From Pseudomonadota bacterium (GTDB lineage: Bacteria > Myxococcota_A > UBA796 > GCA-2862545), in contig SXOB01000011.1 in the NCBI GenBank assembly GCA_005776945.1, forward strand, positions 1 to 64,000: 64,000 bases of DNA, read 5' to 3'. Of the stretch, positions 52,751 through 64,000 are shown in pieces (the stretch's first letter is position 1; the number at the start of each line of letters is the position of its first letter). The notes beneath the pieces are model-generated. The model was not told the DNA's origin. It saw only the letters and a program-made list of their open reading frames with translations, and made no database searches. Position numbers and translations under genes: made by a program.

Positions 52751-53635
52751 ATGGCTCGCGAGGTCACCGAGGCGCACTACTTGCACGAGCGGAGCGGGCT
52801 GGAGCCCGTGCTGCAGCCACCGGTGAAGGCGCCGTGTGGGCTCGCGTGGATTCCGCAACGCGAGGTGCTGCTGGCGGCCACGCGCGAAGGCCAGCTGATT
52901 CAGGTCGACCCGGTGCTCGGGACCCGCACGCTGGGCGCAGATCTCGGAGAGGCCGCGGTGCTGGCGGCGGCGCCGGATCGCGAGCGCTGGTTGGTGGTCG
53001 CCCGCGAGGGCCATTGGACCTTGGGCAATATGGCCGGGACGGTTCTGAGCGCCGGCAAACACCCTTTCCTTGGAGGAATGGACGGCTTTTTCGCCGGCGA
53101 CCTCGTCGTCATCGTCGGCGACACGGCTGAGGGTCGCGCCATGTGGGTTCTCCGGGACGGCGAGGTCGTCACGCGCGCCCGGCTGCCCGCCGGTTCTGCG
53201 GTCGCGGCGAGCAAGGACGGCACGCCCCTGTTGTGTCGGTCTCTGCCGGAAGGCCTCGCCGTCATCCCATTGGGGCCCGACAGCCGCGCCCCGAAGGGGG
53301 AGGCCACGGGACATCGGCTGCGCGTGGCAGGGTCTTGGGTCTTGGGCTTCACGGCGAGCGGCGTGTGCGTATGGGACCACTTCGGAGGCGCGCCTCGAAC
53401 GATGCGCCTGCCCGAGTTGTCGGCGGGTGATGTGTCGGTGGACGGCCAGACCATCGGCCTCGGCACGCGACAAGGGGCGGTGGTATTGGCGCACCTAGGT
53501 CGAACCGACAAGCGGGTTCGACCGGACCTCGTGCGCGCTTTCTCCGTGCCGGTGACCACCGTCGCCTTCTCCAGCCGCGGCCGCTGGCTCGCGACGGGCG
53601 CGGATGGCTTGAGACTTTGGACCTGGGAGGCGTGA
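52751..53635 (+). CDS. WD40-like beta-propeller protein
   Basis: This 294-aa protein has six to seven propeller-like blades without strong WD signatures. The clearest are PCGLAWIPQREVLLAATREG, WVLGFTASGVCVWDHFGGAP and TTVAFSSRGRWLATGADGLR followed by LWTW at the end. No signal peptide is visible, so it is probably cytosolic. It sits 10 bases after purF and overlaps the next lipoprotein gene by TGATG. The role is probably scaffolding; no partner is identified. Confidence 0.7.
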   Translation: MAREVTEAHYLHERSGLEPVLQPPVKAPCGLAWIPQREVLLAATREGQLIQVDPVLGTRTLGADLGEAAVLAAAPDRERWLVVAREGHWTLGNMAGTVLSAGKHPFLGGMDGFFAGDLVVIVGDTAEGRAMWVLRDGEVVTRARLPAGSAVAASKDGTPLLCRSLPEGLAVIPLGPDSRAPKGEATGHRLRVAGSWVLGFTASGVCVWDHFGGAPRTMRLPELSAGDVSVDGQTIGLGTRQGAVVLAHLGRTDKRVRPDLVRAFSVPVTTVAFSSRGRWLATGADGLRLWTWEA

Positions 53636-54705
53636 TGCGCGTCGGACTGACCGTACTGGCGTTGGGGTGCGGCTCCGCGAACGGGTCGGCGCCCACGGAC
53701 GAGGAGACCGACGGCCCCGGCTCGACGACCGACGACGGTGGCGGGACCACCCTCGACATCCCGGCGGTTCCTGAAGGGTGCCTGCTCGTCCTCCTCGAAG
53801 AGATCGCCTTCGATACGGTTCAGAAGACGCTGCGGTACACCTACGATGCCGACGATCAGGTCGTTCAGGTCGACCACGACTACGACGTCGACGGCATCGC
53901 CGACTACGTCGATTCGTACACGTGGTCGGGCGGCGAGGTCGTGGAACGCTGGATGCGTGGGTACGACGTCGGCGGCGCGGTGGTTTCCACCCAACATTGG
54001 CTGTACGTGGACAACTACCCGGTCATCCAGGAGGACGACTACGAGGCTGACGGCGACGTAGACTGGATCATGGAGTTCACCTGGACCGCGTCGGGTCAGT
54101 TGGAATCAAAGGCGATGGACTGGGACGCGAGCGGCTCAGCCAACCAGATCGAAAGATGGCTGTTCGACGCCTCGGGCTTCCTCGTCGGGTACACGATGGA
54201 CCTCGAGGCCAACGGCATTCCCAACGATCGTTGGGAGTACACGAATGACGCTTTTGGCGGTTTGCTTCGGTTGGAGATGGACTTCGGCGCCGACGGCCAC
54301 GTCGACTACCTCGAGGTGACGGACCGCGATGCGGATGGCAAGGCCATCCTGTTTCAGACCGATGGGAGCGCCGACGGGTCGTTCGAGTACCGCGAGGAGT
54401 ACGCCTACAACGGGCTCGATCAGTGGATCCGCACGGACTACGACCTCGAATCCGACGGCACATTCGATGCGGCGACGTCGTTCATCTACGATGCCGAAGG
54501 CCGCCTCATCGAGGAAAGCTACGACGACGACCTGGACCTCAATGGCGACCTCATCTGGCGATGGGTCTACGACGAGGGCGGTTTCCTTGTCCGAGACGAA
54601 CAGGACATCGGGGGGGACGGTTCGGTCGAATCCGTGACGGCCTACACCTACGAGTGCCTGTCAACGGACTTCAAAGGGAAACGCTACCCGAAGTTCTTTC
54701 GGTAG
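53635..54705 (+). CDS. lipoprotein with YD-like repeats
   Basis: This 356-aa protein starts at the ATG at 53635 (TGATG overlap), with signal MRVGLTVLALGCGSANG (Cys12) and an acidic Gly/Thr linker. The rest is a regular series of about ten repeats of about 25 residues, Y-[TE]-Y-[DN]-A/D-x-x-V/L, including RYTYDADDQVVQVDHDYDVD, EFTWTASGQLESKAMDWDA and RWVYDEGGFLVRDEQDIGG. These are similar to YD repeats of RHS shells, but no toxin or RHS core follows. It is likely an extended surface fibre. Its 3' end overlaps the convergent gene by 45 bases. Confidence 0.75.
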   Translation: MRVGLTVLALGCGSANGSAPTDEETDGPGSTTDDGGGTTLDIPAVPEGCLLVLLEEIAFDTVQKTLRYTYDADDQVVQVDHDYDVDGIADYVDSYTWSGGEVVERWMRGYDVGGAVVSTQHWLYVDNYPVIQEDDYEADGDVDWIMEFTWTASGQLESKAMDWDASGSANQIERWLFDASGFLVGYTMDLEANGIPNDRWEYTNDAFGGLLRLEMDFGADGHVDYLEVTDRDADGKAILFQTDGSADGSFEYREEYAYNGLDQWIRTDYDLESDGTFDAATSFIYDAEGRLIEESYDDDLDLNGDLIWRWVYDEGGFLVRDEQDIGGDGSVESVTAYTYECLSTDFKGKRYPKFFR

Positions 54706-55398: not shown

Positions 55399-55970
55399 TC
55401 GTCCTCCGAGCCCAGCGAACGGCGACCCATCCATCCGAGAAGGGGCTCGACCGTCCATGGCAACGACATGCGTTCGAGCATCGTCAGGCCTACTTTGCCC
55501 AGACCCTGCAACCCGCGCACGCGTTCGAGGACGAAGGCCGTCTCCGGGTCTTCAGGGTCGAGGGCCAGGGCCTTCTCCAATTCGATGGAGGCCGTGGCGA
55601 GCTTGGCCACGACGCCCTCGAGCAGCGGTTGCTCACGGGCGCGAACGACGCCGCGGACAATGGTCAGCATATCGGATTCGGCGGCGTAGAGGCGCTTGGT
55701 CCCGCCGCCGGGGACCCGCTTGACGATGCCCCAGGCGCCCAAGTCGCCGAGCGCCATGGACACAGCGCCTGTCGAGAGGCCCGTGGCTTCCGCAATGCGA
55801 TCGGCCGCGAGCGGGTCGGGCGAAAGGTAAAGTAGGGCCCAAATCCGGCCCATGCTTCCTTTGAAGCCGACATGGTCGGCAACCTCCCCGAGCGCATCGC
55901 TCGCCAGCTTCAGGGCGCGAGCGCGGTGGGCCTCCGCCTTCGGCGGCATGGACGTCTCCAAGGCCATCAT
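55395..55970 (-). CDS. GbsR/MarR-family transcriptional regulator
   Basis: This 191-aa protein has a winged helix-turn-helix at about residues 45-105: GRIWALLYLSPDPLAADRIA, TGLSTGAVSMALGDLGAWGI and KRVPGGGTKRLYAAE. That is typical of GbsR-type regulators. A helical C-terminal dimerisation region follows. The start could be 55970, 55967 or 55949. It probably controls its own operon and perhaps the divergent menaquinone operon that begins 80 bases away at 56050. The ligand is unknown. Confidence 0.85.
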   Translation of the reverse strand: MMALETSMPPKAEAHRARALKLASDALGEVADHVGFKGSMGRIWALLYLSPDPLAADRIAEATGLSTGAVSMALGDLGAWGIVKRVPGGGTKRLYAAESDMLTIVRGVVRAREQPLLEGVVAKLATASIELEKALALDPEDPETAFVLERVRGLQGLGKVGLTMLERMSLPWTVEPLLGWMGRRSLGSEDE

Positions 55971-56049
55971 GCCACGTTTCTGGCCCGTTCGCACGGTGCG
56001 GGGGCCCCCGTTAGGCGTGGCCCCCGGCAACGCCGGGAACGGAGGCGCG

Positions 56050-57075
56050 ATGGCGCTCGGCCCGGCGGACGCGGGCTTTGGTCGCCGGGAGCGGCCTGCA
56101 GGCCTCGCGGCGGGGGCGCCGCTGTCGCGCGTCCCCGACCCCGCAAGGGCGCTGGGGCTCGTCGCCGAGGACCTGTTGGCCTGTGAAACGGCCCTGCGTC
56201 AGCTCACCCATACCGATGTGGCGGCGATCCCTGCGGTGGCCAGGCACTTGATGGATGGCGGCGGCAAGCGGCTCCGCCCCGCGTTGACGGCGCTCGGCGC
56301 CCGTGCGGTGGGCTGGAAGGGCGACCTGCCCAAATTGATGGCGGTTGGCGAGTTGATTCACCTCGGGTCCCTGCTGCATGACGACGTCGTCGACGACGCC
56401 GACCTTCGCCGGGGACGGGCAGCAGCCCACCGTGCTTTTGCGCCTGCCGTGACCGTCCTGTCTGGCGATTTCTGCCTGGCGCGGGCGGTTTGGCTGGCGG
56501 CGGAACACGGCGGCCACGCCGTCGTCACGGAATTGGCGCGGGCCGTCACCGAGATGGCGGAAGGCGAGGTTCTCCAATTGGCGGCTACAGGCGACCTCAA
56601 CCTGGCGCGCGCGGCCTACTACGACGTGATCGACCGCAAGTCGGGCGCGCTCATCGCTTGGTGCTGCGCCGCAGGGGCGCTTGGCCTCGGGTCGCGCGAC
56701 GCCATCGGCGCGTTGTTGCGCTACGGGCGCGGCGTAGGTCGGGCCTTCCAGATCGCTGACGATGTACTCGACTATGTCGGTGGCGCGGGCAAGGACCAAT
56801 GGGCCGACCTCAAGGAGCGCAAGGTCACATTGCCCTTGTTGTTGGCTTTCGAGCAGGATCCCAGCCTTCGTGAGCGCGTGCGCAACGCCTCCGATGGGGA
56901 CGCCTTGACGCGTATCGGTCCCGACATCGTCGCCAGCGGCGCCGTGGCGCGCGCGTCGGCGGCCGCAGCCGATTTCGCCAACGAGGCGATCTCGGCGCTC
57001 GACACGTTGCCCGCCTCTCCCTACCGTCAGGCGCTGGTCGACCTCGGGGCCGCGCTGGCCGACCGCGCAGCATGA
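56050..57075 (+). CDS. polyprenyl diphosphate synthase
   Basis: This 341-aa all-helical trans-prenyltransferase makes the isoprenoid tail for menaquinone. The first Asp-rich motif is LLHDDVVDDADLRRG, the second QIADDVLDYVG, and GGGKRLRPAL is the IPP/substrate-binding region. The ATG at 56050 has GGAGG four to eight bases upstream. It is the first gene of the quinone operon and overlaps the UbiX-type gene by ATGA. Tail length cannot be read from sequence by eye. Confidence 0.92.
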   Translation: MALGPADAGFGRRERPAGLAAGAPLSRVPDPARALGLVAEDLLACETALRQLTHTDVAAIPAVARHLMDGGGKRLRPALTALGARAVGWKGDLPKLMAVGELIHLGSLLHDDVVDDADLRRGRAAAHRAFAPAVTVLSGDFCLARAVWLAAEHGGHAVVTELARAVTEMAEGEVLQLAATGDLNLARAAYYDVIDRKSGALIAWCCAAGALGLGSRDAIGALLRYGRGVGRAFQIADDVLDYVGGAGKDQWADLKERKVTLPLLLAFEQDPSLRERVRNASDGDALTRIGPDIVASGAVARASAAAADFANEAISALDTLPASPYRQALVDLGAALADRAA

Positions 57076-57656
57076 GCCGGCTCGTCATCGGCGTCACGGG
57101 TGCGTCGGGCGCTCCGTATGCTGCGCGCCTGTTGCAACGCTTGGCGGGCCGCGCCGACGTTCACGTCGTGCTTTCTCGCAATGCCCGGCTCGTCTGGGTG
57201 GACGAGGTTGGCGTCGACGTCGAGAGTTTCGGCTTCCCCGTCTGGCCCCATGGCGACTTCACGGCGCCCTTCGCGTCGGGCTCGTCGGGGCGCGGGGCGA
57301 TGGTCATCATCCCCTGTTCGTCGGGGGCACTTGGCCGAATTGCAGCCGGCCTGTCCAACGACTTGCTGAGCCGGGCTGCGGAGGTGCATCTCAAAGAGCG
57401 TTGGCCACTCGCGCTTGTGCTTCGCGAATCGCCGCTCTCGCTGGTTGCGTCGCGCAACGTCGTTGCCGTGATTGAGGCTGGTGCCCTGGTTCTGCCGGCA
57501 TCGCCCACATTTTACGGCGCTCCCCAGAGTATGGACGCTTTGCTCGACACGGTCGTCGTCCGAGCCCTCGATGCGGTCGGGATTTCGTTGCCCGACGATG
57601 GCCGATGGACCGGGGAATTGCGGCGCTTCCGCTACGTTCCCGGGGAGGTTGCGTGA
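57072..57656 (+). CDS. UbiX-type flavin prenyltransferase
   Basis: This 194-aa protein makes prenylated FMN, the cofactor of UbiD-type decarboxylases. RLVIGVTGASGAPYAARLLQ at the start, VIIPCSSGALGRIAAGLSND, RWPLALVLRESPLSLVASRN and the C-terminal SPTFYGAPQSMDALLDTVVV are family signatures. In the futalosine route a UbiX-type protein supports decarboxylation after prenylation (the MqnLM step; established knowledge). No UbiD-type partner is in the window. ATGA and GTGA overlaps link it to its neighbours. Confidence 0.92.
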   Translation: MSRLVIGVTGASGAPYAARLLQRLAGRADVHVVLSRNARLVWVDEVGVDVESFGFPVWPHGDFTAPFASGSSGRGAMVIIPCSSGALGRIAAGLSNDLLSRAAEVHLKERWPLALVLRESPLSLVASRNVVAVIEAGALVLPASPTFYGAPQSMDALLDTVVVRALDAVGISLPDDGRWTGELRRFRYVPGEVA

Positions 57657-58765
57657 ACGCGATTTGGTGGATGCCGCGGTGGCAGGACGCCGGTATCGGG
57701 CCGATCGCCGAAAAGGTGCTCGCGTCGGAACGCCTGTCCGAGACCGATGGTGTCGCGCTGTTCAATGTGGCCGACCCCAGCTTGGTCGGCGGATTGGCGA
57801 ATATCGTGCGCGAGCGGCGGCACGGCGACGCGACCTGGTTCAATCGCAACCAACACGTCAACGCGACGAATGTGTGCGAGGCGAGCTGCATCTTTTGCAG
57901 CTTCGCGCGCCTTAAGACGGGCGATCCCGGCGCCTATGCGATGACCATCGACGAAGCCGTCGACCGGGTACGCCGCCACCGCGGGCAGCTCATCACGGAA
58001 GTCCACATCGTCAACGGGCTGAACCCGGATTTGCCATTTTCCTACTACACGGACCTGCTGCGGGCGATCAAGGTCGAACGCCCAGACATCCACATCAAGG
58101 GATTCACCGCGGTCGAAATTGCCTGGTTTGCTCAGACGTTTGGGCGCACGGTGCGAGGGGTGATCGAAGAGCTGGTTGCCGCGGGCCTCGATTCACTGCC
58201 GGGCGGTGGGGCTGAGATTTTTGCGCCCCGGGCGCGCAAGAAATTGTGCCCTGACAAGGTCGACGGGCCAGGTTGGCTCGATGTCCACAGGACCGCGCAC
58301 CAGATGGGTCTGCGTAGCAACTGCACGATGCTCTACGGGAGCATCGAGACGATGGCGGAGCGGGTCGACCATATGATGGCCCTGCGGGCTCTGCAGGACG
58401 AAACGGGCGGATTTCAGACCTTCATTCCGTTGAAGTACCACAACGAGAACAACCGGCTTTCGAGGCTGATGGAGGCCACGGACGCCGACACGTTGCGCAC
58501 CTACGCCGTGTCCCGCCTGATGCTCGACAACATTGGCCACATCAAGGCGTACTGGCCGATGGTCGGCCTCTCGATGGCGCAGCTCCTTCTCGAGTACGGC
58601 GTAGACGATCTCGACGGCACGGTGCGCGAGGAACGGATTTACCACATGGCCGGTGCGTCGACGCCGCAGGAGCTCACCCGGGCCGAATTGGTTGCGCTGA
58701 TTCGGCGCGCTGGGCGCACTCCGGTGGAGCGCGACACGCTTTACGGCGTGGCTGCAGAGGCCTGA
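57653..58765 (+). CDS. mqnE: aminofutalosine synthase (radical SAM)
   Basis: This 370-aa enzyme joins the enolpyruvyl product of MqnA to SAM-derived adenosine. Its radical-SAM cluster motif is Cys75-x3-Cys79-x2-Cys82 (NVCEASCIFCSFARL). HIKGFTAVEIAWFAQTFGRT, DSLPGGGAEIFAPRARKKLC and GGFQTFIPLKYHNENNRLSR are typical for MqnE rather than MqnC, as is DLDGTVREERIYHMAGA near the end. It starts with GTG in the ubiX-type stop and overlaps mqnA by TGATG. Confidence 0.93.
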   Translation: MNAIWWMPRWQDAGIGPIAEKVLASERLSETDGVALFNVADPSLVGGLANIVRERRHGDATWFNRNQHVNATNVCEASCIFCSFARLKTGDPGAYAMTIDEAVDRVRRHRGQLITEVHIVNGLNPDLPFSYYTDLLRAIKVERPDIHIKGFTAVEIAWFAQTFGRTVRGVIEELVAAGLDSLPGGGAEIFAPRARKKLCPDKVDGPGWLDVHRTAHQMGLRSNCTMLYGSIETMAERVDHMMALRALQDETGGFQTFIPLKYHNENNRLSRLMEATDADTLRTYAVSRLMLDNIGHIKAYWPMVGLSMAQLLLEYGVDDLDGTVREERIYHMAGASTPQELTRAELVALIRRAGRTPVERDTLYGVAAEA

Positions 58766-60432
58766 TGCGCCCCAGGGTCGGAACTGTCGGCTACCTGAAT
58801 GCGCGGCCGCTCATTCAGCATTTGGACGCGCGCTTTGTGGACGTCGTGGCCGACACGCCCGCGGGCGTCGCAGACCGGCTGGCGTGCGGCGATGTCGACG
58901 TCGCGCTTGTGCCGGTGGTCGCGGCGCTTGAGCAGGGCGCGTCATTTCTTCCGGGTTGGTGCATCGGGGCGGATGGACCGGTCGACAGCGTCCTTCTGGT
59001 CGCCGAGACGCCGCCGGAGTCGTGGACATGCGTCATTCTCGACGACGCGAGCCGCACCTCCCAGCGGCTCGCGGAGCTCGTGTTGCGCCTGGGTCCTCTG
59101 GCGAAGCGCGTCAGCCCGGATTTGGTCGTCGAGGTGGGCGCGGATCCGGTCGATCGGGCGCGCGGATCGGTCGCTTCGCTCGTCATTGGTGACGCCGCGC
59201 TGGCCTTGCCGCCACGCCTCGCGGAGCGGCACGACCTCGCCGCCCTGTGGAAGGCGTGGACAGGCCTTCCTTTCGTCTTCGCCGCGTGGGCAACCCGTCG
59301 GCCGGTGGACGCCAAGCTCGTTGCGCACCTTCGCGAGGCGGGCGCAGCCGGGGTCTCCGCCGTCGACGACCTTCCGCCAGGGCCCGAGCGCCGGTACCTG
59401 CAGGACCGTATTCGCTATGCCTTCGACGACGCCGCCTTGTGTGGCCTCCGCCGCTTCGCGGCGATGATCGCGGAACACACGAATCACGCCGCGGTTCGCT
59501 TTGTGGAGCCGGCCAAGGTGCCGCGGCCAGGTGTTTCGGCGCGGTGGTTGGAGCGGGCTGAGGCGGGCGAGGACCTTCCCGCCGAAGGGTGGCGCGCGCT
59601 GGCGACCGAGGCCCGAACCTCCGAGCTGACCGCGGCCGCCGACGGCGTGCGGCGGCGCACGGAGGGGGTTGACGCAGCGGTGTCGGCGTCGTTCGCCGTG
59701 GCCTGGGCATCGGGACGCCCGGACCTTGGGGAGCGAGCCGCAGAAGCAGTCTATGGCGGAGCGACGCGGTTTCATCTGCTCGGGGAAGCGGCGCCCGAAG
59801 ATGTGGGCAGGGTCCTGGATGCTGCGCCGAATTTGAGCGTTTGGGTGTCGGCGTCCCACCACTTCGATGCATTGGCCCGCGCTGGCGCCGTCGGACGCCT
59901 CCCGGAGCCCATTGGGTGCGCTTCGCCGTCTGTGCGCCGGCGTTTGGGGGTCGACGCTTGGTCGTCGGAGCTCGCCCGCATTCGGGCGGCGCACGCGGCG
60001 GGTTTGGAGCAAGTGGCACACTGGGTGATCGGCCAGGGCGACGACGTCGAGGACCGCTTGCTGCACCTTGAGGCGATCGCTGCCTGCCCGGACTGGTTTG
60101 CTTCCGCGACGGTGGCATGTGCGGTCGTGGCGGGCCCCGTCGGCGAAGTCGGGAATACGGCCGTAGACCTCGCGCGGTGGACGGCGTTGGCGCGACTTCG
60201 GTGGGCGCGAATCCCTCGATTTGCGGCGGCGCCGACCCCCGAAGGGCTTGGGCTCGCGCAACTCGCGTGCTGGATGGGCTGCAACGACCTCGGGGTGGTG
60301 GTGCTCGAAGGGCCTGTCGAAGGCTGGACGGAGATTCGGGATCGCACGGCCCGGCACCTCGCTGACGTTGGCCGGAGGGCGCTCATTCCCGACGGGGCTG
60401 AGTCGTCGCGGCGGCGGCGGGCGGTCGGGTGA
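58765..60432 (+). CDS. mqnA: MqnA (chorismate dehydratase) fused to a degenerate MqnC-like domain
   Basis: This protein is 555 aa, about twice the usual MqnA length. Residues 1-250 are a complete MqnA: VGTVGYLNARPLIQHL, GDVDVALVPVVAALEQG, GADGPVDSVLLVAE, DDASRTSQRLAELVL, WTGLPFVFAAWA. Residues about 259-520 follow the order of MqnC/MqnE: ARWLERAEAGEDLPAEGWRA, IRAAHAAGLEQVAHWVIGQG, DVEDRLLHLEAIA, and GLGLAQLACWMGCNDLG. Residues 300-384 contain no cysteine, so the radical-SAM CxxxCxxC motif is missing. The first domain should make 3-enolpyruvylbenzoate from chorismate. The second is probably a pseudoenzyme with a structural role (inference). Confidence 0.88.
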   Translation: MRPRVGTVGYLNARPLIQHLDARFVDVVADTPAGVADRLACGDVDVALVPVVAALEQGASFLPGWCIGADGPVDSVLLVAETPPESWTCVILDDASRTSQRLAELVLRLGPLAKRVSPDLVVEVGADPVDRARGSVASLVIGDAALALPPRLAERHDLAALWKAWTGLPFVFAAWATRRPVDAKLVAHLREAGAAGVSAVDDLPPGPERRYLQDRIRYAFDDAALCGLRRFAAMIAEHTNHAAVRFVEPAKVPRPGVSARWLERAEAGEDLPAEGWRALATEARTSELTAAADGVRRRTEGVDAAVSASFAVAWASGRPDLGERAAEAVYGGATRFHLLGEAAPEDVGRVLDAAPNLSVWVSASHHFDALARAGAVGRLPEPIGCASPSVRRRLGVDAWSSELARIRAAHAAGLEQVAHWVIGQGDDVEDRLLHLEAIAACPDWFASATVACAVVAGPVGEVGNTAVDLARWTALARLRWARIPRFAAAPTPEGLGLAQLACWMGCNDLGVVVLEGPVEGWTEIRDRTARHLADVGRRALIPDGAESSRRRRAVG

Positions 60433-61568
60433 TTCGAGCCCGGCTCGGTTGGCTCGGGGATCGCTGGGTCGAAGACGTATTCGTGGCGTGGGACGAGGGC
60501 GGTCGGGTCACCGAGGTTCGCCCAGGGCGTTCGGACGACGGACCTGCTGAGGACGGGCTCGTTCTGCCGGGCCTCGTCAACGCGCACGTTCATCTCGAGC
60601 AGACCGGCCGAAAGGCGCCCGCCGAAACCGGCCTGGCCGGCTGGATTGGCGCGTTGTTGCGAGGTCCCGCGGCCCCCCTGGACGCAGTCGAGTTGGGCAT
60701 CGCGCAGGTCGTCGCATCCGGGACCGCTGTGGTTGGCGACGTTGGCAACGGCGGCGATGCGTGGACGGCCATCGCTGCGGCCGGCCTCGGGGGGGTCGCG
60801 TGGCATGAGGGCCTTGGACGAGGTCGTGGGACGGTCGATGCCGCGGTGGCGGCCGTTGCGCCCGCGGACGACCGGGTGAACGGAGGCCTTTGCCGTCGAC
60901 CAACACCCCACTCGCTCTACAGCACGGCGTTTCCGCTCGCGTCGGCGCTGGCGCGGCCGGGACAGGCGCCGGCCGCGCTCCACTTCCTCGAGGACCCTGC
61001 GGAGCGCCGATTCCTCTCCGGTGGCGATGGGCCGCTGGCCGAGTTGCTGGACGCCCTCGGTGTGGACTGGCGGCCACGCATGGAGGGGCTTGGCGAGCCG
61101 TTGGACGTCCTGCGCGGGCTGGGGCTGTTGGGATCCCACGTCGTGCTGGTCCACGGCGTGGAATTGCTGCCTGAGGAATGGCGCGAGGTGTCGGAATCGG
61201 GCGCGTCGGTCGTGTTGTGTCCGCGCAGCAACCTCGCCATCGGCGGCCGGCTACCGGACGTCCCTTCGGCGCTCGCCGCAGGGGCCCGGCTTGCGTTGGG
61301 CACGGACGGCACGGTTTCGTCGCCCGATCTCGACCTGTGGGGGGACGTTGCGTTGCTTTTGGGACGGTGGCCCCATGTGGACCCGGCCGTGTGGATGACG
61401 GCTGCGACGCTTGGGGGGGCCTACGCACTCCGGCTGGACGCCACCTATGGCGCCCTTCGAGTGGGGGCGCGTCCGGGCGTGTTGTGGGCCGAGGGGGTAC
61501 GCGCGCCGGCCGACATTGGCCGCGTGCCGGCGAGGTCATGGCGGGTCGCTCCTAGGGGGATTGCGTGA
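60429..61568 (+). CDS. amidohydrolase, probable aminofutalosine deaminase
   Basis: This 379-aa cytosolic amidohydrolase has the HxH motif in LPGLVNAHVHLEQTG (His53, His55), a VHGVELLPEEWRE His, VVLCPRSNLAIGG and LALGTDGTVSSPDLDLWGDV with the catalytic Asp. This layout matches cytosine-deaminase/chlorohydrolase-type deaminases such as aminofutalosine deaminase. Its place between mqnA and the prenyltransferase supports conversion of aminofutalosine to futalosine. It starts with GTG in the mqnA stop. Other purine-deaminase activities cannot be excluded. Confidence 0.85.
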   Translation: MIRARLGWLGDRWVEDVFVAWDEGGRVTEVRPGRSDDGPAEDGLVLPGLVNAHVHLEQTGRKAPAETGLAGWIGALLRGPAAPLDAVELGIAQVVASGTAVVGDVGNGGDAWTAIAAAGLGGVAWHEGLGRGRGTVDAAVAAVAPADDRVNGGLCRRPTPHSLYSTAFPLASALARPGQAPAALHFLEDPAERRFLSGGDGPLAELLDALGVDWRPRMEGLGEPLDVLRGLGLLGSHVVLVHGVELLPEEWREVSESGASVVLCPRSNLAIGGRLPDVPSALAAGARLALGTDGTVSSPDLDLWGDVALLLGRWPHVDPAVWMTAATLGGAYALRLDATYGALRVGARPGVLWAEGVRAPADIGRVPARSWRVAPRGIA

Positions 61569-62407
61569 CGTCGCTTGTGGCCTTGGGCCAGATGATCCGT
61601 CTGAGCCATTCCGTCTTTGCCCTTCCGTTCGCGTTGGCGAGCGCGTGGATGGCTTCCGAAGGGCATGCCGTGGGACCCTGGCGGTGGGCAGGCATCGTTG
61701 CCGCGGTCGTGCTCGCGCGTGCGACGGCGATGGCCTTCAATCGCGTCGTCGACCGCGACATCGACGGCCTGAACCCGCGCACAAAGGACCGAGAGATTCC
61801 GTCCGGAAAAATAGGTCTCACGACCGCGGTCGTGTTCACGGCGGCCACGGCCGCGGCCTTCGTCGCCGTCGCCTTTTCGCTTGGGCCTCTCGTCGGCTGG
61901 CTCTCGCCCATCGCCCTCGCTGTGGTGTGGGGCTATTCGTGGACGAAGCGCTTCACGTCATGGTGCCACGCGGTGCTCGGACTCGCCCTGGCCCTCGCAC
62001 CGACCGGCGCGTGGCTGGCCGTGCGGGGCACCTACGACTGGACTCCGTTTTGGATCAGCCTCGCGGTGGCGACGTGGGTAGCTGGCTTCGACATGTTGTA
62101 CAGCACGCAAGACCGGGACTTCGATGCTGGGGCGGGGCTGCACAGTGCACCGGTCAAGCTTGGCCTCGCGCGCACGCTCGCGCTGAGCACGGCCTTGCAT
62201 GTGGGCACGATGGCCTTCCTCGCGGCGGTTGCGTGGGTTTCTCCGCGTGGGCCGGCGTACGCGGTGGGTTGGGTGATCATGGCGGTCGTGCTCGCCTACG
62301 AGCATCACATCGTCCGTCCCGACGACCTGAGTCGGCTGGACAAGGCCTTTTTCGACCTCAATGGCGCCGTCAGTCTTTTGTTCCTTGGCGGTGTGCTGTT
62401 GTCTTGA
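61565..62407 (+). CDS. mqnP: UbiA-family prenyltransferase (MqnP-like)
   Basis: This 280-aa integral membrane enzyme should attach the polyprenyl tail to 1,4-dihydroxy-6-naphthoate. Its two Asp-rich motifs are AFNRVVDRDIDGLNPRTKDR and MLYSTQDRDFDAGAGLHS, separated by the usual transmembrane helices (about eight in total). The start is a GTG overlapping the deaminase stop. Its presence with a polyprenyl-diphosphate synthase and UbiX-type gene supports the MqnP assignment over other UbiA enzymes. Confidence 0.9.
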   Translation: MTSLVALGQMIRLSHSVFALPFALASAWMASEGHAVGPWRWAGIVAAVVLARATAMAFNRVVDRDIDGLNPRTKDREIPSGKIGLTTAVVFTAATAAAFVAVAFSLGPLVGWLSPIALAVVWGYSWTKRFTSWCHAVLGLALALAPTGAWLAVRGTYDWTPFWISLAVATWVAGFDMLYSTQDRDFDAGAGLHSAPVKLGLARTLALSTALHVGTMAFLAAVAWVSPRGPAYAVGWVIMAVVLAYEHHIVRPDDLSRLDKAFFDLNGAVSLLFLGGVLLS

Positions 62408-62959: not shown

Positions 62960-63454
62960 ATGTCGAAGTCGCTGCAAGGAATCGTCGTCGGTCAGGCCCT
63001 CGCTGGCCTGTTCGCGGGTGCGCTCACGGCATGTGGTCAGTCCCATGAGGCTGCCCCGGAAGCATCGCCCGCAGAGGCCGTTGTCGAGGCCGCGCCCGTC
63101 GCTGCCGCTCCGCCCGCCGAGGCCGCTCAGCCGGCCGCCGTCGTCGCTCATGACTGCAAGGGCCACAACGCCTGTAAGGGCCAGGGTGGCTGCGCCGTCG
63201 AAGGAAAGAACAGCTGTAAGAGCCACAATGAGTGCAAGGGCATGGGTGGCTGCAAGGTCGATGAGGCCACCGCCGCCGCAATGAACGCCGCGGCTGCCTC
63301 GGCCGCGACCGCCGCTCAGCCGGCCGCATTGCCGTCGCACGCCTGCAAGGGCCACAATGAGTGCAAGGGCATGGGCGGCTGTGCCGTCGCCGGCCAGAAC
63401 GAGTGCAAGGGCAAGAATCCTTGCAAGGGCAAGGGCGGCTGCAAGACCGGCTGA
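62960..63454 (+). CDS. bufferin-type RiPP precursor, 12 Cys, with lipobox
   Basis: This 164-aa protein starts at an ATG behind GGGAGAAG. The signal MSKSLQGIVVGQALAGLFAG-ALTAC has a lipobox at Cys25. Four modules of the form C-K-[GS]-[HK]-N-x-C-K-G-x-G-G-C follow, with cysteines at 66/72/78, 86/92/98, 129/135/141 and 149/155/161. Two Ala/Pro-rich linkers separate them. The next gene is an MNIO, the enzyme family that turns such cysteines into thiooxazoles to bind copper (established for bufferins). It matches the 6/12-Cys bufferin type. A role in copper sequestration is inferred; the lipid anchor would be unusual. Confidence 0.85.
   Translation: MSKSLQGIVVGQALAGLFAGALTACGQSHEAAPEASPAEAVVEAAPVAAAPPAEAAQPAAVVAHDCKGHNACKGQGGCAVEGKNSCKSHNECKGMGGCKVDEATAAAMNAAAASAATAAQPAALPSHACKGHNECKGMGGCAVAGQNECKGKNPCKGKGGCKTG
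63222..63378 (+). repeat. direct repeats inside the bufferin gene
   Basis: GCCACAATGAGTGCAAGGGC is found at 63222-63241 but is at offset 129 at 63351-63370, both inside CKxHNECKGMGG modules. A second pair, GCCGCTCAGCCGGCCGC at 63122 and 63311, is offset by 189 bases, the length of the 63-residue unit (linker plus two Cys triplets) that was duplicated. Confidence 0.7.
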
Positions 63455-64000
63455 TGACCCAAAGCCGGCGCGTCTCGCGGTTTGACGTGCCGGACCTTGG
63501 CGTCGGGGTGGGCTTTCGCCTGCCTCACTACCATCGGGTGGTCGACGACCGGCCGCCGATGGATTGGTTTGAGGTCATCTCTGAGAACTTCATGGTGGAC
63601 GGCGGTTCGCCCCTGTGGTGGCTTGAACGGCTGCAGGCGGCGTACCCGGTCGTCCCCCATGGGGTGTCCATGTCGCTTGGGGGCGCCTTCGACGCGACCC
63701 ACCTCGCGCGCCTCAAGCGGCTCGTGGACGCGCTGGATCCGCCTTGGGTGTCGGACCACATTTGCTGGACGGGGTCGGCCCACGCCAACACCCACGACCT
63801 GCTCCCGGTTCCCTATACGCGCGACATGATCGACCGGATGGCGGACCGGATTCGCCGCGTTCAGGACGTACTCGGGCGTCCCTTTGCGGTCGAAAATGCA
63901 AGCAGCTACCTCACGTACCGCGACTCCGTCATGCCGGAGTGGGCCTTCGTCGCGGAGCTGGTCGACCGGGCGGACTGTGGCCTGCTTCTCGACGTGAACA
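63454..64000 (+). CDS. bufB: MNIO family protein (DUF692, BufB-like), 5' part
   Basis: The first 182 residues are visible; the gene runs off the window. The ATG at 63454 overlaps the precursor stop (TGATG). Motifs of multinuclear non-heme-iron oxidative enzymes are in order: LGVGVGFRLPHY, DWFEVISENFM, VVPHGVSMSLGG, PPWVSDHICW, HDLLPVPYT, FAVENASSYLTY and LLLDVN. The His, Glu and Asp residues in them are iron ligands. It should modify the cysteines of the upstream precursor. A BufC-type partner (DUF2063) is expected just beyond the edge. Confidence 0.92.
   Translation, partial: MTQSRRVSRFDVPDLGVGVGFRLPHYHRVVDDRPPMDWFEVISENFMVDGGSPLWWLERLQAAYPVVPHGVSMSLGGAFDATHLARLKRLVDALDPPWVSDHICWTGSAHANTHDLLPVPYTRDMIDRMADRIRRVQDVLGRPFAVENASSYLTYRDSVMPEWAFVAELVDRADCGLLLDVN

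Follow-up and report, generated by a model that had tools for sequence, protein, structure and literature searches.

Why would the gene for MqnA, which catalyses the first step in making vitamin K2 by the futalosine route, carry at its 3' end a domain that resembles MqnC, a later enzyme of the same route, and yet lacks the cysteines that such an enzyme needs? The question is raised by an mqnA gene in the window, by which we mean the whole stretch of 64,000 nucleotides that was analysed. An earlier note, made by eye from this DNA, had read the extension as an apparent radical-SAM pseudoenzyme, related to MqnC and MqnE, that is joined to MqnA.

The fusion protein and its operon

The protein (P0001, 555 aa, 58765-60432, + strand) consists of an MqnA part, residues 1 to about 255, and a shortened radical-SAM barrel without the cluster cysteines, residues 256 to about 544, here called the relic. 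Its gene is the fourth of six in an operon (55852-62407, + strand) with overlapping junctions of GTGA at 57653, TGATG at 58763 (mqnE stop and mqnA start) and GTGA at 60429 (fusion stop and mqnX-like gene). Enolpyruvyl benzoate, the product of MqnA, is used by MqnE. The features are as follows.

55852..57075, +, polyprenyl diphosphate synthase (PF00348, E 3.4e-52); start uncertain, family match from near residue 101
57072..57656, +, ubiX-like flavin prenyltransferase (TIGR00421, 150.3 bits, above cut-off)
57653..58765, +, mqnE, aminofutalosine synthase, CX3CX2C intact, GTG at 57653 the likely start (TIGR03700, 497 bits, cut-off 434.55)
58765..59529, +, MqnA (chorismate dehydratase) domain of the fusion, residues 1 to ~255 (PF02621; closest solved structures)
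59530..60396, +, MqnC-derived relic barrel without cluster cysteines, residues ~256-544 (TIGR03699 match; relic profile against MqnE; AlphaFold and Foldseek)
59533..59676, +, N-terminal helices of the relic, residues 257-304, a conserved block (alignment and conservation; helices in the model)
59713..59724, +, relic loop, residues ~317-320, between barrel strand 1 and helix 1, where the CX3CX2C loop of intact fusions is deleted (alignment columns 384-391 are gaps; model)
59971..60348, +, best conserved part of the relic, residues 403-528, C-terminal half of the barrel (TIGR03699 match)
60429..61568, +, mqnX-like amidohydrolase of the aminofutalosine deaminase family (PF01979; NF006269 best but below its cut-off)
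61565..62407, +, mqnP-like UbiA prenyltransferase (PF01040 and TIGR01475 above cut-off; MqnP models at 228-239 bits, below their cut-offs)

Residues 4-195 of P0001 match the Pfam family VitK2_biosynth (PF02621) with 111.9 bits, above the cut-off of 26 (E 4.5e-32), and chorismate dehydratases are the best solved relatives of this N-terminal part. N12 and S75 align with the positions altered in the Streptomyces variant chains 7an7 and 7an8, which we take to be the catalytic residues of the Streptomyces chorismate dehydratase, and both are invariant across the 40 sequences in the alignment of relatives. In P0001, MqnA is likely functional and the MqnC domain at its C-terminus dead.

Two other features of the window were recorded. 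An Asp/Gly-rich repeat protein without a Pfam match is encoded near the operon (53617-54705, +), and a similar one near an MqnD-like gene on another contig (L001:438-1568, -). At 62960-63999 there is a Cys-rich BufA2-like bufferin precursor with CKGHNACKGQGGC repeats (58.9 bits against a cut-off of 60). The gene directly after it resembles an MNIO bufferin maturase and continues past the window's end; this is probably a metal-binding RiPP locus.

The C-terminal domain and its predicted fold

The MqnC model TIGR03699 matches residues 403-528 of P0001 (E 1.6e-9; E 3e-10 when the C-terminal part was scanned alone), and at 37.1 bits the domain does not reach the equivalog cut-off of 428.1. The CX3CX2C motif is absent from it, as from all readable relics of other genomes. 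The nearest cysteines are C226 and C385, so that residues 300-384 contain none, in agreement with the earlier note. The note's alignment of residues 259-520 with MqnC/MqnE from start to end is slightly overstated. Helices 257-304 and the C-terminal half-barrel at about 399-544 align clearly; in the Fe-S/SAM half that separates them, part of the sequence has been deleted and the rest diverges strongly. Binding of a [4Fe-4S] cluster and cleavage of SAM are not expected of the relic because the ligating cysteines are absent, and it presumably holds neither cluster nor SAM.

A profile made only of relatives without the cysteines aligned over nearly its full length with the window's MqnE (HHalign probability 98.8%, E 4.9e-17) and also found the solved MqnE structure (E 2.5e-15), so the similarity is well above chance. 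An AlphaFold model of the whole of P0001, based on 40 sequences, had a pLDDT of 92 and a pTM of 0.75, and Foldseek matched it to MqnA structures first and then to BioB, HydE and MqnE. The C-terminal domain was predicted again with cysteine-less relatives alone, so that intact sequences could not lend their fold. The same fold was obtained (pLDDT 90, pTM 0.88), which rules out a barrel copied from the intact sequences in the alignment. This relic-only model has a predicted beta/alpha barrel of the radical-SAM type, and its top four matches in the PDB are MqnE chains (TMq 0.78-0.81), followed by BioB, HydE and PylB. The barrel related to MqnC that the earlier note's reading called for is thus present in the prediction, with MqnE as its closest solved structure. 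In the full-length model, a strand (307-316) and a helix (321-330) flank the short loop at about 317-320.

Intact and decayed fusions among relatives

We searched 58 relatives of the window's genome and extracted the loci, which gave 43 MqnA genes of the fusion type. Ten are intact MqnA-MqnC fusions (G009, G026, G030, G032, G043, G045, G047, G051, G054 and G056), all with CX3CX2C and all above the TIGR03699 cut-off. The other MqnA genes carry a tail of about 125 to 375 residues without the cysteines. Among these 33 non-intact genomes, the gene of G050 is cut by a contig end inside MqnA, so that its tail is not visible, and that of G040 is cut within the relic; the motif is absent from every readable tail (32 of 32). 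The loss seen in the window is therefore repeated in 31 further genomes, same-genus and same-family relatives among them, which rules out a sequencing or assembly error as its cause and, with it, the correction from raw reads that the earlier note had named as a possible way to restore the cysteines.

For 31 of the 32 relics the best match was the fused MqnC and not a standalone MqnC or MqnE. This argues that the relics share descent with the fused MqnC, and rules out an origin from MqnE or from the standalone protein. Of the residues invariant in intact fusions, the average share that relics keep is highest in the N-terminal helices (46%), followed by the C-terminal half-barrel (35%) and the Fe-S/SAM half (16%); R471, Q499, G505 and G536 are retained in nearly all relics, the cluster cysteines in none. 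An origin of the domain as an MqnC that has lost its motif appears almost certain. Its size varies: it has shrunk to about 150-200 aa in G008, G010, G017, G019 and G027, and the tail of G048 is no longer recognisable, so constraint is weak in places.

In family f4, single reading frames of about 940-1300 codons encode MqnE, MqnA and the MqnC domain in one chain. The MqnC domain is intact in L120 (G032) and decayed in L093, L096, L100, L101, L102, L109 and L110. We found no description of such one-chain proteins in the literature searched; they suggest physical proximity between MqnE and MqnA. In G009 the C-terminal half of the fused MqnC occurs a second time, in truncated form, about 2 kb downstream of the intact fusion (L117:6569-7472, +); it is 76-85% identical to other fused MqnCs.

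A standalone MqnC candidate in genomes with decayed fusions

The earlier note had advised looking for a full MqnC elsewhere in the genome, and contig C91 of the window's genome encodes an MqnC-type protein, a radical-SAM protein of 352 aa whose CVARCDYC sequence preserves CX3CX2C.

C91:129638-130630, standalone MqnC candidate (TIGR03699 best family, E 4e-81)

Its score of 272.5 bits does not reach the equivalog cut-off of 428.1, and the standalone proteins as a group score 265-303 bits. Because these scores fall below the cut-off, we infer their MqnC function, and the C91 protein is a candidate MqnC, by its profile match and by exact complementarity, and not a certified family member. A divergent standalone MqnC of this type was found in all 33 genomes with a non-intact mqnA and in none of the ten with an intact fusion. 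The association was the same in all four independent pairs on the tree (sign test p 0.125, a test that cannot reach 0.05 with four pairs). In the intact genomes G060 and G061, at the level of the class, the only two matches are the fusion and MqnE. The standalone protein most likely performs the MqnC chemistry.

In the tree the standalone proteins form one clade, far from the fused MqnCs. Within it most of them cluster with others of their family, a pattern that suggests that the second MqnC is old and that reciprocal losses came later; some transfer from one family to another may also have occurred. Two standalone copies each are present in G027 and G046 (L141/L157 and L149/L150, respectively), and G050 has a distant CofH/MqnC-like radical-SAM protein with CVKSCRFC on a very long branch (L122:1138-2836, +).

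The window's genome also encodes an MqnD-like protein, three members of the PNP family (MqnB could be one of them) and one UbiD-family protein, so that a complete route is plausible. A second PF02621 protein was considered as a spare MqnA and rejected, as the MqnD structures 2czl and 1zbm match it best.

Number and direction of the losses

On a maximum-likelihood tree of the MqnA domain, the intact forms fall in families f1 (G009), f4 (G032) and f2 (eight genomes). This tree requires four changes, each forced by well-supported branches, and a topology in which the intact fusions were constrained to one clade was rejected (p-AU 9e-7). A single decay event is ruled out by these two results. Intact-length fusions also occur elsewhere in the phylum, in family f15 (G076, G097, G104, G143 and G186). 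Since regain of the motif is implausible and f15 has such fusions, the direction of change was most likely from intact to decayed, and within one bacterial order the motif was most likely lost on four or more independent occasions.

Selection on the relic

Omega was estimated by the Nei-Gojobori method for pairs of genomes, with 95% confidence intervals. For the relic it ranged from 0.05 to 0.56 over all pairs, with upper 95% bounds of at most 0.75 and thus all below 1. The four pairs of genus g15 gave 0.11-0.23, the pair G004/G016 0.05 and more divergent pairs 0.42-0.56; for the window's genome against G001 the value was 0.54 (95% CI 0.34-0.75). The MqnA part had values of 0.03-0.35 in the same pairs, and the intact MqnC half about 0.07-0.13. 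The relic is relaxed but not free of constraint, since its omega lies above that of intact MqnC, yet the upper bounds stay below 1. Values below 1 may also reflect nothing more than the harm that a misfolded tail would do to MqnA.

Fifteen positions invariant in intact fusions are retained in all four decayed groups, against 0.2 expected and a maximum of 3 in 5000 draws. In the window's protein these are L262, G268, L279, A291, A292, A466, R471, A474, R477, L478, G494, Q499, G505, G510 and G536. Because the chance model treats positions as exchangeable, this result shows a shared constraint, probably of the fold and not of a particular function. The combined comparisons support a pseudoenzyme, an enzyme homologue that would have lost its catalytic residues and been kept by selection.

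Possible reasons for keeping the domain

The scenario that we favour, and consider likely, builds on what the comparison of genomes shows about the domain's origin, its motif loss and the recurrence of that loss, the complementarity with the standalone gene, the open frame and the selection on it. In the ancestor of the order, MqnA and MqnC would have been fused in one bifunctional protein; a standalone MqnC from a divergent subfamily would have been present too at some stage, making one of the two MqnCs redundant. Lineages that retained the fused MqnC would have been left with no standalone gene. In those that retained the standalone MqnC, the window's genome among them, the fused barrel would have lost its Fe-S loop and SAM half because it was redundant. 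The N-terminal helices and C-terminal half-barrel of the dead domain would have stayed under purifying selection through entrenchment, that is, the stability or solubility of MqnA, or its assembly with neighbours (MqnE above all), may have come to depend on the attached barrel. With the MqnC chemistry done by the standalone enzyme, the relic would be kept because it helps MqnA to fold, stay stable or dock. We put the probability that retention is structural, and not merely tolerated, at roughly 0.6-0.7.

If instead the tail had no function, persisting through its attachment to the essential MqnA, wearing away in one lineage after another and constrained only not to misfold, one would expect the progressive shrinkage and near loss seen in several lineages and the raised omega, which exceeds that of MqnA and is some two to four times the value for intact MqnC; an ordinary MqnA such as SCO4506 (291 aa) needs no such tail. 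However, the same 15 positions persist across four decayed groups, omega goes down to 0.05-0.23 in g4 and g15, with length conserved nearly gap-free, a full barrel is still predicted with high confidence, and truncation by one stop codon, though easy, was rarely fixed. We regard a tolerated tail as unlikely, but a serious competitor. Somewhat less likely again is a scaffold or regulator, the kind of role that the earlier note had suggested. Here MqnE, the standalone MqnC or an intermediate of the route would bind to the dead barrel, which would thereby channel MqnA or place it under feedback control. The tight operon with mqnE and the mqnX-like gene, the one-chain MqnE-MqnA-relic proteins of family f4 and the selection on the relic all favour such a role. 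Against a conserved ligand pocket stands the half of the barrel on the side of the substrate and SAM, which is the least conserved (16% of intact-invariant residues kept). Regulation or docking in general is rated as doubtful, and slightly more so the fullest form of this idea, a new job evolved in parallel in several lineages in which the barrel would bind an intermediate, MqnE or the standalone MqnC and couple or feedback-control the first committed step of menaquinone synthesis.

The open barrel fold and the selection on it would also suit an enzyme of another kind, with a cluster-free step. This is very improbable: the standalone protein presumably covers the pathway step in every such genome, the cofactor-facing half of the barrel is deleted or variable, and the retained positions are mostly Gly, Ala and Leu. 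Least credible of all is an artefact of sequencing or assembly, or a chance similarity, which might be read from the modest single-sequence score (37 bits) but is contradicted by recurrence across the 31 further genomes and by profile E-values of 1e-15 to 1e-17.

Significance and comparison with known systems

The author of the earlier note knew of no described example, and the literature we searched, which includes few subscription papers and whose silence is no proof, likewise describes no MqnA-MqnC fusion, no decay of one and no radical-SAM pseudoenzyme in this pathway; the words 'fusion' and 'fused' are absent from the full texts of PMC3914697 and PMC13386864. The order appears to hold a natural replicated experiment, in which the same fused domain died at least four times where a second copy could take over and its shell was kept, and with such replication the reasons why cells retain dead enzyme domains can be put to a direct test. 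There is also a consequence for annotation, in that relic fusions can be misread as bifunctional MqnA/MqnC proteins and the probable true MqnC scores below the curated cut-off. The one-chain MqnE-MqnA-MqnC proteins hint at a physical coupling of these pathway steps.

Compared with MqnC (TIGR03699), from which it almost certainly descends, the relic aligns in its fold, its N-terminal helices and the C-terminal half of the barrel, but it lacks CX3CX2C, has a shortened barrel and scores 37 bits against 428.1. The intact MqnA-MqnC fusions of the ten genomes and of f15 have the same domain order as the window's protein, are 47-54% identical to it in the MqnA half and adjoin mqnE in several genomes, as the window's fusion does; they differ in having an intact MqnC half under strong constraint and no standalone MqnC in the genome. 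No solved structure matches the relic better than MqnE (6xi9, 6xig; TMq up to 0.81), but MqnE is an active enzyme, and in sequence the relics are nearer to the fused MqnC (31 of 32).

In animal fatty acid synthase, a pseudo-ketoreductase and a pseudo-methyltransferase serve as structural pseudo-domains of a multienzyme. Like the relic, they are dead catalytic domains inside a working enzyme, probably kept for structure; they differ in fold and pathway, and for the MqnC relic the loss has happened repeatedly and goes along with a second copy of the gene. Working enzymes that contain a pseudo-domain are already known as a kind, and the strong points of the present case are the repeated loss and its exact match with the second gene copy.
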